IMG/VR virus record: IMGVR_UViG_3300043399_000529
Span: 1-61,446 of that record
Length of the DNA stretch: 61,446 nt
Strand: one strand, 5' to 3'
DNA from: a virus
A model generated the notes under the pieces. The model was not told the DNA's origin and ran no database searches. It saw only the letters and a list, made by a program, of their open reading frames with translations. The translations under genes were made by a program, and so were the position numbers. Below are positions 3,516 through 11,487 of this stretch, piece by piece (position 1 is the stretch's first letter; the number at the start of each line of letters is the position of its first letter).

Positions 3516-4634
3516 TTACTCAGCAGCGGCGAGAATGTACTTGCCGTACTTCTTGTTGAACTCGTCCCAGTTCTTAAGCTTCTGAGCAGCAATAGGCAGA
3601 CGGTAGGTCATTACCGCAGTACGCATACCCATAATAACAAGCTCAGTACCGAGATTGTCCATAATGTAACGAAGCATGTTGTCAACGTTACCGTGCCACT
3701 TCTCGTCAGCCTTCTTGGTGTTGTTCTCGAAGCGTTCCTTAAGTTCGTAGCACAGGTTAATCATCAGTGTATACTGAGCGGAAATTTCCTGTACCTTAAG
3801 GTCCTTAACCTTACCTTCGACAACATCAGTTGCAGACGGAAGCTGACCTGACCACTTGCGGTGACCAATGAACTTGTGAGCAATGCCTTCGCCAACAGTA
3901 CCAGCGATCACATCGGTCACTTCCTTTTCGCTCATCTGTTCCTGCAGAATGTCGCTAACGAACGTCCAGCTACGCGGAGTAGCAAACGAACGGGAAGAGC
4001 TAGTTGGACTAAAGTCAAACAGGTCACCCTTGTGCTGGGAGAGATAGCCAATTACGTCCGAGTGAACGTTATGGGTAACAGCCCACAGGTGCCAGCTATC
4101 AAAATCAACACGCATCTCAAAGTGTACAAAGCGGTTAGCAAGCGGAGCCGGCATACGGTAAGTAACACCCTTGTCAGTCTCGCGGTTACCAGCAGCAATA
4201 ATCACCACGTTGTCGGGCAGCTTATACTGACCAATGCGACGGTTAAGAATAAGCTGGTATGCAGCAGCCTGTACAGCAGGCGGAGCAGAGTTCATTTCGT
4301 CAAGGAAGAGAATGACATGCTTATACTGAGAAGCAAGGTCAGCAGTTGGAAGATCAACTGGAGCAGCCCAGTCCATTGTGTTAGTGTTGGGGTTATAGAA
4401 ACCAATACCACGCAGGTCGGTCGGATCGAGCAGCGCCATACGCAGGTCGATTACAAGTGCACCAATCTCGTCACCAATATCAGCAACAAGCTCGGACTTG
4501 CCAATGCCCGGAGGGCCCCAAAGGAAGATGGGACGCTTGCGCTTTACAGCAGCAATCTTAATGAGGTTACGTGCCTCAGCAGACGTAACAGTACGAACTT
4601 CACTTACAACAGAATTCTTATCAGTCTTAGCCAT
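3516..4634 (-). CDS. MoxR-type AAA+ ATPase
   Basis: 372 aa. Walker A GPPGIGKSE (about residues 40-48), Walker B ILFLDEMN, a sensor-1-like AAGNRE and an arginine-finger-like ANRF are all present in MoxR/RavA order. These ATPases usually remodel protein complexes together with a VWA-domain partner. I see no VWA gene next to it here. It sits alone behind promoter 4674-4701 and is followed by the GC-rich gap. Its codons are richer in G/C than most of the window. The ATPase call is firm; the target is unknown. Confidence 0.85.
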   Translation of the reverse strand: MAKTDKNSVVSEVRTVTSAEARNLIKIAAVKRKRPIFLWGPPGIGKSELVADIGDEIGALVIDLRMALLDPTDLRGIGFYNPNTNTMDWAAPVDLPTADLASQYKHVILFLDEMNSAPPAVQAAAYQLILNRRIGQYKLPDNVVIIAAGNRETDKGVTYRMPAPLANRFVHFEMRVDFDSWHLWAVTHNVHSDVIGYLSQHKGDLFDFSPTSSSRSFATPRSWTFVSDILQEQMSEKEVTDVIAGTVGEGIAHKFIGHRKWSGQLPSATDVVEGKVKDLKVQEISAQYTLMINLCYELKERFENNTKKADEKWHGNVDNMLRYIMDNLGTELVIMGMRTAVMTYRLPIAAQKLKNWDEFNKKYGKYILAAAE

Positions 4635-5542: not shown

Positions 5543-6559
5543 ATGTTCAATCCTGTGTTTAACCCCAAGAAATTACAAGGTTTTTTCTGCTCAAGTCCTT
5601 GGAATAGCATCACCATTGAGGACGATGGTTTCGTATACAGTTGCCAATGTGCCCGCTGGACTAACCTAAAATTGGGCAATTTACTGCAAGAAAATTTACT
5701 TGATATATACGCTAGATCTCCGCATTTGCAGTCATTACGTGATACTGTAAAAGATGGAACGTATAGCTGGTGTGTAGAATGGGATTGCAATGAGATATCT
5801 AGATTGCCCACATATAAAGAAAATCCATTTAAAGAATTTAATGTGGATGAAAATCCAAGTTTACCAACTAACATAACACTAGCAATTGATTTGAATTGCA
5901 ATCTAAAATGCCCAAGCTGTCGTTCATTTAAAACATTTAGTAATATACCAAATCCAGTAACGAAGAAAATACTTGATTCACTAGCAGAGGCTTATAAGGA
6001 TTTTAATCAATCTACAATGGTCATGCTTGATGGCGGCGGCGATGTTTTCGTTAGCAAAGCATATGAGGAGTTTCTTTTTACAGGCAAGCTTCCTAAGTGT
6101 TGGAAGCTAATGATATTAACCAACGGCAATTTAATTCCCAAACGAAAAGAAGAAATACAAAAGATCGCACACCAAATAGATATGGTAACAATTAGTCTTG
6201 ATGCCGGTACTGAGGAAACTTATGCCATCACTAGGGGTGGCAGTTTTGAAAACGTTATTAAGGGAATTGAAATATTAAAAGAAATGGGTATATCCCAACA
6301 TCTCCAATTCGTATTGCAAAAAGCAAACTACAAAGAGCTGTTGAAATATAAAGCAATAGCAGACAAATATGATATTAGTTACGGTGTTCAAAAAATTGAT
6401 AATAGAGAACACATGACAAAAGAGTACTGGGCTAACGCTAATTTAGACGATAACCCAGATGTAGATTATGCTTTGCTAAAAGAATACCTTACAGTGCTAA
6501 ACAATGATCCAAAATCTAATTTGGATGGCGGCACACGTTGGTTACTAGCTAAGCTTTAA
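5543..6559 (+). CDS. Radical-SAM protein with N-terminal SPASM-like cysteines
   Basis: 338 aa. The radical-SAM cluster motif CxxxCxxC is C119-C123-C126, followed by a GGGD stretch and TISLDAGTEETY as in SPASM-type radical-SAM enzymes. The extra cysteines (C16, C34, C36, C77, C82, around SPW and the D-G turn) lie before the core instead of after it, so the auxiliary-cluster domain is permuted. Such enzymes often modify peptides or sugars; the substrate is unknown. It is one of few plus-strand genes and converges with the minus gene ending at 6556 (4-nt overlap). The plus-strand repeats at 5465-5524 lie just upstream. Confidence 0.75.
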   Translation: MFNPVFNPKKLQGFFCSSPWNSITIEDDGFVYSCQCARWTNLKLGNLLQENLLDIYARSPHLQSLRDTVKDGTYSWCVEWDCNEISRLPTYKENPFKEFNVDENPSLPTNITLAIDLNCNLKCPSCRSFKTFSNIPNPVTKKILDSLAEAYKDFNQSTMVMLDGGGDVFVSKAYEEFLFTGKLPKCWKLMILTNGNLIPKRKEEIQKIAHQIDMVTISLDAGTEETYAITRGGSFENVIKGIEILKEMGISQHLQFVLQKANYKELLKYKAIADKYDISYGVQKIDNREHMTKEYWANANLDDNPDVDYALLKEYLTVLNNDPKSNLDGGTRWLLAKL

Positions 6560-7041
6560 TCTTCATACAACTCATCTTCCCATGCATCAATGTTAATCTC
6601 ATCTTCATTACGATCATACAAATCGTAGTAAGCTTCATTAGGCATTAGTACACGGACTTCCCCAGGTCTACCTTGCCATGCTAGTAACAACATAGGGTAG
6701 TCGTCTTTATTAAACAAGTCGACCATGTAGAATTCACTACCGCAACTACCATAGAATAGCTTAATCTTTCCATGTCGAATGTTAGCCAAAGCTTGCTTAA
6801 GCTTGATCTTATAAGACGTGATTAATCGAACGCTATTCTTTTTCTTAATGCGTAACAAATCAGATGAGGTTAGTTTTTGAATTGTTGCACAGTTTTCTTC
6901 GTCAATGACAAGCAGACAGTTCTTTACTTTAATACTGCCTTTAGTGTGCGAGTTATCAGGCGTTTCCTTTGTGCTCCACGGAACAGTACATTGTACGTGA
7001 TTAACGTAGTAGCTTTCGCCTTTTGTCTTTACAACCCACAT
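6556..7041 (-). CDS. Conserved phage protein; true start probably upstream through an amber codon
   Basis: 161 aa from ATG at 7041 (MWVVKTKGESYYV). The frame is open and looks coding further upstream (REL-VFHF-NKKHL-EDP), but between 7041 and the TAG at 7113-7111 there is no ATG, GTG or TTG. Two codons before that TAG lies ATG at 7119, with AAGGA 8 nt upstream and the usual overlap with the preceding gene. Reading ATG-GCC-TAG through would give a 187-residue protein. The genome window carries a tRNA with anticodon CUA (10092-10168). An ATT start is the alternative. Family of unknown function (PWSTKETPDN, KGSIKVKN motifs). Confidence 0.75.
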   Translation of the reverse strand: MWVVKTKGESYYVNHVQCTVPWSTKETPDNSHTKGSIKVKNCLLVIDEENCATIQKLTSSDLLRIKKKNSVRLITSYKIKLKQALANIRHGKIKLFYGSCGSEFYMVDLFNKDDYPMLLLAWQGRPGEVRVLMPNEAYYDLYDRNEDEINIDAWEDELYED

Positions 7042-7105
7042 TGGTATTGTAGGATCTTCTAAATGCTTCTTGTTAAAGTGAAATACTAATTCACGACAAA
7101 CAATC

Positions 7106-7279
7106 TCAATCTAGGCCATTTGCTTTTTCCTTTTCAATAGCGGCTTCTTTTTGTAATAATTCAGTCATTTCTTTTAGAACATCGATGCCATGAATAGCCA
7201 TCATGTCCTGTATTAGATCTTCTTCAATTTCAGCATTGATGCCATCGACATTAAGCTTAATCATTTTTGTTTTATTCAT
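7106..7279 (-). CDS. Small acidic protein
   Basis: 57 aa from ATG at 7279 (MNKTKMIKLNVDG), overlapping the upstream stop by 8 nt; ATG at 7291 is an alternative. Ends EKANGLD-TGA inside the start region of the next gene. Mostly helical and charged, no motif recognised. Confidence 0.62.
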   Translation of the reverse strand: MNKTKMIKLNVDGINAEIEEDLIQDMMAIHGIDVLKEMTELLQKEAAIEKEKANGLD

Positions 7280-7640
7280 CTTCATCCTCATATTCTTTAG
7301 TCGTTATCTCGTCAAGTCTTAACAATGCCTGTTCTACTAGTTTGGGAATTTTCTTCCTACAAACTGCACACATCCATCTGAGATACATAACATCTTCTAT
7401 ATCAAAAAGTTTTTCACCTTGATATTTTCCAAACCAAAGAGTATAATCTGGTTTTTTTCCAGATGGTGGAATGCGACATGTTTCAATTTCTGCTTTGATA
7501 ATACTGTAAAACTCTTGTTGTGTGCATTTATATTGATATTCTTTTTCGTATTCTTCTTTAAGAAATTCGGGATAAGAAAATCCAAATTCTACTTTACCAG
7601 CATTGTACCGTTGTAACCTTCTGCTTGCAGTTTTGTACAT
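7272..7640 (-). CDS. DUF3820-like small protein
   Basis: 122 aa. LWFGKYQGEKLFDI followed by YLRWM (about residues 69-90) resembles the (F)GKYKG..L.diP..YL.W pattern of DUF3820, a domain also found fused to exonucleases and thought to bind nucleic acid. A CAVC pair follows. The acidic C-terminus overlaps the next gene. Function inferred only from that resemblance. Confidence 0.6.
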   Translation of the reverse strand: MYKTASRRLQRYNAGKVEFGFSYPEFLKEEYEKEYQYKCTQQEFYSIIKAEIETCRIPPSGKKPDYTLWFGKYQGEKLFDIEDVMYLRWMCAVCRKKIPKLVEQALLRLDEITTKEYEDEDE

Positions 7641-7704: not shown

Positions 7705-8529
7705 TTAAGCGATAACTGTTAGAGCAGTTCCGCATGTTGAACAGAACTTAGCATGTGCCTTGTTCTGTTTCCCGCAAGTAACACACTTTGGTTTACTCTT
7801 AACCGTTACTGGTTTGCGGATTGGTGCATTGTCTGGTGTTTCACCAAGCAACTTAAAGATCATTACGTGCTGCTCTGGTAATGTCTTAAAGCCAGTAACC
7901 TTGCTGAACTTTTGATTGCTTACGCTGCCTGGCACTGTAATGCCAGCATCATTATAACCTTGTTCAACAAAGTCACTACATGCGACACCAGGATGTCCTT
8001 CAAAGCTCTTTGCTGTTGCCCCTGATGCAGTCCAACTCATATTATTTTGTGTAGCATTACGCAATACAGAGCTTGATGCGGATGTATGTGAAATGCTGCT
8101 ACCAATCATAGTGTTACTAATCCAATATGGTTCTGGGTATGTTGGTGCAACATATGTTAATACTGGATGACGATAACGTGTAACGTCTTCAAATTGATAC
8201 TCAACACGGATAATACCATCTTCAAGTTTAACACCGCGATGTTGTTCTACTGCATCACTGCGTTCAATAAACTTAAAGCGATTGCCCTCATTGAGGTTGG
8301 TCTTTACCATACGCTCAAGTTCAATCTCGCTGTTGGCATCTACAATTAGACCACCATCAACGACTTCATTGCCGTCAATGCTAATACGGACAAGTGCTCT
8401 TACTGTATTGAGATTTTTAATGAGTAGGGAATACTCTGCACCAAATGGCAGGAATACTTGATCACCAAATTCACGTAGGACTTTGCGGTTGGATTTCACA
8501 GCTACCGCGAGCTTGTTGCTATACATCAT
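7705..8529 (-). CDS. Conserved phage protein with C-terminal zinc ribbon
   Basis: 274 aa, MMYSNKLAVAVKSN. The first 120 residues are beta-rich (SLLIKNLNTVRALVRISIDG, then RFKFIERS, then RVEYQFED), then a serine/asparagine-rich middle, and a C-terminal zinc ribbon CVTCGK...FCSTCG (about residues 248-268). The ribbon suggests binding to a protein or nucleic-acid partner. It has its own leader of about 80 nt with a CAAGCACTTAG-type box and no overlap upstream. Role unknown. Confidence 0.7.
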   Translation of the reverse strand: MMYSNKLAVAVKSNRKVLREFGDQVFLPFGAEYSLLIKNLNTVRALVRISIDGNEVVDGGLIVDANSEIELERMVKTNLNEGNRFKFIERSDAVEQHRGVKLEDGIIRVEYQFEDVTRYRHPVLTYVAPTYPEPYWISNTMIGSSISHTSASSSVLRNATQNNMSWTASGATAKSFEGHPGVACSDFVEQGYNDAGITVPGSVSNQKFSKVTGFKTLPEQHVMIFKLLGETPDNAPIRKPVTVKSKPKCVTCGKQNKAHAKFCSTCGTALTVIA

Positions 8530-10091: not shown

Positions 10092-10168
10092 TGGCGCCCG
10101 GTGTGGGGCTCGAACCCACGCTGGCGAGACTTTAGAGATCTCCGCTCTAACCACTGAGCTAACCAGGC
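10092..10168 (-). tRNA. tRNA with anticodon CUA (amber-decoding)
   Basis: A 77-nt cloverleaf with encoded CCA. Acceptor GCCTGGT/ACCGGGC (one G-T pair), D-arm GCTC/GAGC, anticodon stem GAGAT/GTCTC around loop CTCTAAA, T-arm GTGGG/CCCAC with loop TTCGAGC. U33 and A37 fit only if positions 34-36 (10135-10133) are CUA, which reads UAG. The variable loop of 6 nt is slightly long. It is a suppressor-type tRNA unless the first anticodon base is edited. The amino acid it carries cannot be told from the sequence. Confidence 0.85.
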
Positions 10169-10842: not shown

Positions 10843-11201
10843 CTGTTAGCGTCAATATATGCTTTGATGTCTCCACCATATAATAAAAGCTGAGTACTGA
10901 TGCTGTCATCAAATATACTCAGCTTTCCATTTTTGAGGAAGTATGGTGCTTTCAAATGTCGATCTAACCCTAGCAAAATGTTTCCAGTAGTAACTTGTGC
11001 TTTGTTATTCTCTTGATCTAACTTGATAGTGTAAGGTTTTAATCCAAGTTCAACTAACCATTCATACCCACGTTCGGTTAATCGATACCCGCCATCTTCA
11101 CGTATGTTTCGCCACATATGTACATAGACAGTATCAAAACTATTCTCGGTTAACCCGAGACTAGAACAAATATCGAACGCTAACTTACGCTTCAGTTCCA
11201 T
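10839..11201 (-). CDS. Hypothetical protein, 120 aa
   Basis: MELKRKLAFDICSSLGL; contains GGYRLTERGYEWLVELG, which looks like a winged-helix recognition piece but is too short to be sure. Converges with the kinase-like gene (4-nt overlap) and overlaps the gene at 11185 by 17 nt. Confidence 0.62.
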   Translation of the reverse strand: MELKRKLAFDICSSLGLTENSFDTVYVHMWRNIREDGGYRLTERGYEWLVELGLKPYTIKLDQENNKAQVTTGNILLGLDRHLKAPYFLKNGKLSIFDDSISTQLLLYGGDIKAYIDANS

Positions 11202-11487
11202 TAGGGAATATTGTTGAACCGGCGTTTAGTAATACAACGGAGAAATCCTCCGTTTTGAAAAGCTTGTTAAGCTTCTTTGCTAGATTAATTGCATGACCAG
11301 GATTGGAGAATGAAACCTTCTTATACTTGGGTCCTGGATACCCAACAAGACTATTAAAGCTTTTTAAGTTGATTGGTTTATTTTGATAATAAACTGCCCA
11401 GATGCCTTCGCTGGCTAGAACTTGTTCGCTTTTGTAAGTGTTCTTGTCTGTAAATTCTAGTAGAACGTTTGGTTTGGGTCTGCTCAT
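11185..11487 (-). CDS. Hypothetical protein, 100 aa
   Basis: MSRPKPNVLLEFTDKN; short strands and a lysine-rich helix (AINLAKKLNKLF). A late-like box lies 29 bp upstream. No family recognised. Confidence 0.65.
   Translation of the reverse strand: MSRPKPNVLLEFTDKNTYKSEQVLASEGIWAVYYQNKPINLKSFNSLVGYPGPKYKKVSFSNPGHAINLAKKLNKLFKTEDFSVVLLNAGSTIFPNGTEA

Follow-up and report, generated by a model that had tools for sequence, protein, structure and literature searches.

The virus record IMGVR_UViG_3300043399_000529 (61,446 nucleotides, of which the whole is referred to as the window) carries, on its minus strand, a gene whose reading frame is interrupted by an amber stop codon at codon 3, together with a tRNA bearing the matching anticodon CUA. 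Comparison with homologous loci makes it very probable that a dedicated phage tRNA-CUA gates one gene per phage through amber suppression within the first codons. An initial annotation of the window had put this gene forward as a direct candidate for regulated amber suppression, and the invariant TAG, the selected frame behind it, the nearby CUA tRNA and a parallel in an independent gene family, a probable peptidyl-tRNA hydrolase (PTH2), support that proposal at the sequence level. The elements in question, in window coordinates, are:

7127..7132, minus strand: Shine-Dalgarno sequence AAGGAA, preceding ATG 7119 (from the sequence)
7117..7119, minus strand: ATG start codon (from the sequence); an ATG precedes the TAG by 0-8 codons in 121 of the 138 loci compared
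7111..7113, minus strand: in-frame amber TAG at codon 3 (from the sequence), invariant in homologues
6556..7110, minus strand: conserved frame of 184 codons after the TAG (translation, alignments A2/A3, AlphaFold2, pN/pS)
10092..10168, minus strand: tRNA, anticodon CUA, discriminator G73 (ARAGORN; Rfam RF00005, 57.2 bits)

A phage gene with an amber codon at its start

The minus strand reads AAGGAAAAAGCAA ATG GCC TAG ATT GAG ATT GTT TGT CGT GAA TTA GTA TTT CAC TTT AAC AAG AAG ..., with GCC (7116-7114) as the sole codon between ATG and TAG, and the frame after the TAG stays open until a TAA at 6558-6556. ATG 7119 and the TAG thus share one frame behind AAGGAA, as the initial annotation had it. 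The codons ahead of position 7041 look coding and are free of ATG, GTG and TTG, as it had also claimed, their number being 23 rather than 24: the first such codon past the TAG is ATG 7041 (PMWVV), and only there does an annotatable open reading frame (ORF) start. Scanning the window for a Shine-Dalgarno sequence, an ATG, 0-8 codons, a stop and a long open frame without a nearby start returned exactly one match, the 7119 gene. Around the TAG, no RNA structure beyond that of shuffled sequences was detected (z 0.27).

The TAG is invariant and followed by a selected frame

Homologues were collected by tblastn on cultured phages (4 records), from IMG/VR (80 relatives) and by further scans, resulting in 138 distinct loci; none were found in genome or plasmid collections. 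Reading the first 80 IMG/VR relatives codon by codon revealed 79 with a Shine-Dalgarno sequence, an ATG, one to three codons, a TAG and the frame, and a single relative with a plain ATG (L032). Across all 138 loci, 121 show ATG-(0-8 codons)-TAG, nine start directly with ATG, and in the remaining eight the domain forms the C-terminal part of a longer, TAG-less protein; Sinorhizobium phage Phosso and Agrobacterium phage Atu_ph07 belong to these eight. The starts of these 121 match the arrangement at 7119, and no homologue begins at MWVV. Among the cultured phages, the homologue in Rhizobium phage RHph_I1_18, which is unannotated, reads ATG AGT GAG TTC ATG TAG AAC GAA TCG TGC AGG GAA GTT ATC TTC CAT TTC AAT, and a CUA tRNA begins some 15 bp past the end of this amber frame; in MN988519, the tRNA occupies 10911-10988 and the amber gene about 11000-11248.

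Every one of the 121 loci has TAG as this stop, and neither TAA nor TGA occurs. The codons that separate it from the ATG differ in number and identity (MS, MA, MK, MQ, MTQQ, MSQA and others), so that the TAG alone is fixed, and a Shine-Dalgarno sequence lies 4-16 nt ahead of the equivalent ATG in 119 of them. The base after the UAG is always a purine (A in 111, G in 10; background A 32%). A purine at this position favours suppression. Between the TAG and M24, the ratio of non-synonymous to synonymous change (pN/pS) is 0.17, compared to 1.39 in the +1 frame. As synonymous change is near saturation here (pS 0.82), TAA or TGA should have appeared, but neither was ever seen. FHFN and PMW are invariant in the alignment, and conservation across residues 1-23 ranks among the highest in the protein. 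One hallmark of programmed readthrough is a conserved stop combined with protein-level selection in frame downstream of it, and both were found here.

An automatic gene caller would pick 7041 or skip the gene, as happened in the RHph_I1_18 record, which could be taken to mean that the gene is a pseudogene, that the TAG is a sequencing error or that translation truly begins at MWVV behind untranslated codons. However, the same TAG recurs in 121 distinct loci, and in a cultured phage as well, which excludes a sequencing error, and residues 1-23 are strongly conserved; this explanation is already refuted by that conservation, and we give it practically no weight.

Alternatively, ATG-x-TAG might represent a tiny leader ORF, with termination at the UAG and re-initiation on the next codon instead of readthrough. 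Some two thirds of the loci, if not more, have ATT as this next codon, and AUU is a possible weak start. Other loci, however, have ATC, GTA, GTT, GTC, ACT, AAC, AAA or ATA at this position, and most of the PTH2 phages described below have AAT, GTT or ACC. Moreover, re-initiation needs no particular stop, yet TAA and TGA were never found, and it leaves the CUA tRNAs unexplained. We consider it unlikely.

CUA tRNAs accompany the amber genes

Amber suppression calls for a CUA tRNA in the same genome. The window has one, as initially annotated, and both ARAGORN and Rfam RF00005 find it; it is the only tRNA of the window and lies 2.97 kb upstream of ATG 7119 on the same strand. A cloverleaf scan of the fetched 4-8 kb per locus, with thresholds set on known examples, detected CUA tRNAs in 104 of the 121 TAG loci, next to one UUA and three UCA tRNAs. 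Loci without the TAG had a CUA tRNA in 5 of 17 cases (Fisher p 2.7e-6 versus TAG loci, with loci treated as independent despite their kinship). In 40 of 41 measured loci, the tRNA is located upstream of its target and in the same orientation; the distance is frequently no more than a few hundred bases. Several of these tRNAs escaped ARAGORN or were given a wrong identity, such as 'Arg(tct)' in L038 and L055. The T-loops are odd (CTCGATA, ATCGTTA) in a number of highly divergent CUA tRNAs, among them those of L038 (2884-2958), L055 (2625-2699), L009 (2834-2908) and L063 (2884-2958).

The 99 distinct CUA tRNAs are strongly divergent; 73 keep a GCG...CGC acceptor and 84 have A73. Their anticodon stems are frequently weakened: pair 31-39 departs from canonical pairing in 69% (chiefly as C-A or A-C), compared to 2% among the 256 other tRNAs of these loci, and pair 27-43 in 41% versus 14%. 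All five anticodon-stem pairs are present in 16 of the 99 CUA tRNAs, but in 206 of the 256 others. In the window tRNA, none of the five is missing, and 31-39 is a T-G wobble. Shortened (4-bp) anticodon stems are known to raise bacterial stop-codon readthrough (PMC13092985), and the weakened stems would fit selection for competing with release factor 1 (RF1).

UAG is read by RF1 only and is invariant here, so an early UAG could also serve as an RF1 sensor akin to that of prfB, with near-cognate readthrough increasing as phage or host reduces the activity of RF1. The tRNAs found in 104 of 121 loci, and in all ten PTH2 phages, would then remain unexplained, and the product is no release factor according to Pfam, NCBIfam and PHROGs, the hallmark of prfB-type control. 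An RF1 sensor thus appears improbable, marginally more so than re-initiation.

Several observations weigh against suppression by a dedicated tRNA. Within the window family, a test of independent pairs left too few gains and losses to assess co-occurrence of TAG and tRNA. The pairing is also imperfect: 17 of the 121 TAG loci had no CUA tRNA in the fetched stretch, although in some it lies farther off, as in G018, and the TAG-less L258, L268, L305 and L275 retain theirs. By nearest relative, the tRNA isotype came out scattered and gave no assignment. Finally, the support comes from sequence, from which readthrough and its degree, insertion of an amino acid at the UAG and a role in timing are predicted.

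The genetic code remains standard

The presence of a CUA tRNA would also be expected under genome-wide reassignment of UAG (code 15 or similar), with the TAG at codon 3 being one of many in-frame TAGs. TAG, however, is the terminator of 3-9% of the long ORFs in six genomes, the window among them, against a trinucleotide share of 18-30%. Cross-genome searches uncovered no other conserved ATG-x-TAG start in the genomes compared and, among the matches listed, no clear internal conserved TAG; the TAG-spanning alignments looked like antisense or out-of-frame shadows. Neither hallmark of code 15, UAG within many conserved genes and its absence as a terminator, was thus observed. As TAG still ends other genes, UAG is not reassigned and the code is standard; we regard reassignment as very improbable.

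PTH2-like genes carry an independent amber start

The genome containing L032 (G022, 134 kb) has a plain-ATG homologue of the window gene (termed FHFNKK gene after a conserved motif), yet retains a CUA tRNA. Scanning it for a Shine-Dalgarno sequence followed by ATG, a few codons, TAG and a long frame yielded one TAG match, ATG AAA TAG ATA GAC GGC AAA .... This amber gene is located directly upstream of the FHFNKK gene, overlapping its ribosome-binding site, and 1.5 kb from the CUA tRNA. Its protein matches PF01981 (PTH2) with E=0.0011 and 19.6 bits, under the 23-bit cut-off, and is 44% identical to the protein of phage CBB. By sequence, the amber gate in G022 appears to have moved to the first gene of the FHFNKK pair.

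A tblastn search with the G022 PTH2-like protein retrieved related genes in jumbo phages, referred to as PTH2 in what follows. Ten other phages have PTH2 with an ATG-x-TAG start (CBB, GAP32, XbC2, BF, pEa_SNUABM_19, ME3, XacN1, RAS14, Arash and LR756511):

ATG GCA CAA TAG: PTH2 start in CBB and GAP32
ATG GCT CAC TAG: PTH2 start in XbC2
ATG ACG CAC TAG: PTH2 start in pEa_SNUABM_19 and BF
ATG ACT CAC TAG: PTH2 start in LR756511
ATG ACT TAG: PTH2 start in ME3
ATG CTG TAG: PTH2 start in Arash
ATG AAG TAG: start in XacN1 and RAS14, heading a longer protein with PTH2 as its C-terminal part

All ten genomes encode a CUA tRNA, which in ME3 is located about 0.4 kb upstream. The PTH2 gene of K64-1, in turn, has a plain ATG, and none of the seven tRNAs of this phage is CUA. 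In IMG/VR, we found nine amber-start PTH2 records, some representing the same phages, and eight of them have a CUA tRNA within 6 kb; PTH2 of L442 and Hallingskeid has neither an amber start nor a CUA tRNA within that distance. Annotation has overlooked the amber PTH2 copies of BF and SNUABM_19 and truncated those of CBB, GAP32, ME3 and Arash. The TAG-less PTH2 relative in L442 (a 165 kb contig, ~5960-6010) has its nearest Shine-Dalgarno-ATG overlapping an out-of-frame TGA (CC ATG A), and its start may be frameshifted or misassembled. For RAS14 (L404, 2252-2326), ARAGORN additionally calls a tRNA with anticodon UUA (ochre) besides the CUA tRNA of this phage.

Proposed mechanism

Ribosomes initiating at ATG 7119, very probably the true start, would meet the UAG at codon 3, and RF1 would end most rounds after a dipeptide. 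With charged phage tRNA-CUA present, the UAG would be decoded and the full protein, M-A-X-IEIVCRELVFHFNKK..., would be made, its output being set by competition between RF1 and the phage tRNA. Placing the UAG within the first codons would mean that failed rounds release only a short peptide. Expression would then depend on two events, transcription of the gene and build-up of the tRNA. With the tRNA gene in the same region, this would amount to a natural coherent feed-forward (AND) gate. Such a gate would delay and tighten the expression of one gene as long as the tRNA has yet to be produced and charged by the host, with the genome as such not recoded.

On balance, we think that this is probably a widespread device in standard-code phages, in which a fast-evolving, weak-stemmed amber tRNA gates one translation-related gene, either the FHFNKK-domain protein or PTH2. 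It would have originated on, or switched between, two or more unrelated genes and would explain many orphan suppressor tRNAs.

Structure and possible function of the window protein

The window protein comprises an N-terminal beta domain (about residues 1-80, FHFNKKHLED...PMWV...PWSTKETPDN..TKGSIK) and a C-terminal ferredoxin-like domain (about 91-165). The beta domain is common to all members; the RHph_I1_18 protein is without the ferredoxin-like domain. AlphaFold2 models reached a mean predicted local distance difference test (pLDDT) score of 88 and, for the N-terminal domain, 94.6. In the latter model, residues 2-12 form the first beta-strand, so that a protein starting at M24 would lack strand 1.

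No Pfam, PHROGs, NCBIfam or PADLOC family matched the window protein at a meaningful score, and fold searches returned no solved structure with E<=0.001. The best VIA-align hits were uninformative for both the C-terminal domain (Z 5.6, root-mean-square deviation (rmsd) 2.4 over 64 residues, a common ferredoxin-like arrangement) and the N-terminal domain (Z 3.3, rmsd 4.8, 67 residues). Residues 29-46 (window 6973-7026, minus strand) contain a WW-domain-like motif, GxTYYVNHVxxxxPW, a resemblance in sequence only: it covers 18 residues with E 1.6e-4 to 0.05 (A3 profile), and the fold comparison returned zero WW chains.

Regarding gene context, PTH2 lies next to the FHFNKK gene in G022 and two genes upstream of it in Phosso, and a permuted transfer-messenger RNA (tmRNA; Rfam RF04321/RF01850) adjoins the amber gene in several loci (L036, L053, L054, L066, L080 about 3520-3960; L064 1712-2101). 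SsrA/tmRNA helps bacteria to cope with readthrough by suppressor tRNAs. Because of the amber start on the adjacent PTH2 in G022 and the tmRNA genes beside several copies, the target is probably translation-related; for the window protein itself, a role in translation or ribosome rescue is a tentative guess from this context, which we hold at somewhat below even.

In XacN1 (L403), a tmRNA is located about 1 kb from the CUA tRNAs. RHph_I1_18 (L377-L380, MN988519.1), a T4-like rhizobial phage, has a large translation toolkit by annotation: a GatB-like fragment, a CCA-adding enzyme, a tRNA-His guanylyltransferase, an aminoacyl-tRNA hydrolase and a tmRNA note.

Relation to known systems

Code 15 phages (UAG=Gln; crAss-like, Lak, phAss-1) likewise use a phage suppressor tRNA to read in-frame UAG in a standard-code host. 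They reassign UAG in many genes, however, 41 ORFs in the case of phAss-1 (PMC10607447), whereas the window family has one conserved early UAG and keeps its TAG terminators. The orphan amber tRNAs of XacN1 and Summit are likewise CUA tRNAs that occur without recoding. The authors of the XacN1 study described two CUA tRNAs but could not identify a target (PMC5852040), and those of the Summit study likewise found no target for the CUA tRNA (PMC9022506). For XacN1, we propose the HD-PTH2-like gene with its ATG-AAG-TAG start as the target; in Summit, the scan for a Shine-Dalgarno sequence, ATG, a few codons, TAG and a long frame gave no candidate.

The prfB gene (RF2) shares the early in-frame stop and control by release-factor competition, but uses UGA and +1 frameshifting and encodes a release factor, in contrast to UAG, no frameshift and a dedicated suppressor tRNA in the case of the window gene. 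Engineered suppressor-tRNA circuits (PMC7969014, PMC13276491) similarly employ an amber codon and a separately made tRNA as a second control; these are artificial, whereas the phage arrangement is apparently natural and conserved. The 4-bp-stem tRNAs mentioned above also tie a shortened anticodon stem to stop readthrough, though in that case it is tRNA-Trp-CCA reading UGA (PMC13092985), while the mismatch in phage CUA tRNAs is mostly at 31-39. A search of the open-access literature found no report of an arrangement as described here, although one may exist elsewhere.

Together, these comparisons offer a likely answer to why standard-code phages carry stop-suppressing tRNAs. A precise, conserved candidate target with cultured examples (RHph_I1_18, ME3, BF, CBB, GAP32, XacN1) renders the question testable. 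Amber-start genes also represent a class that annotation misses or truncates and, if the mechanism holds true, would be a natural counterpart to the suppressor-tRNA circuits of synthetic biology.

Genes surrounding the amber start

The initial annotation had further pointed to an overlap with an upstream gene, which we also observed:

7106..7291, minus strand: overlapping upstream ORF of 61 amino acids, its TGA ending just past the TAG; not a conserved partner

Ahead of the ATG, the other loci examined have intergenic sequence, a tRNA or a different ORF. On the plus strand, window positions 5543-6559 encode a radical SAM protein with a SPASM domain, which is convergent with the amber gene and touches its 3' end. 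Neighbourhood clustering of the loci revealed no constant partner gene. Positions 7705-8529 on the minus strand encode a protein with a C-terminal zinc ribbon, for which 45 of the clustered loci have a relative close to the amber gene.
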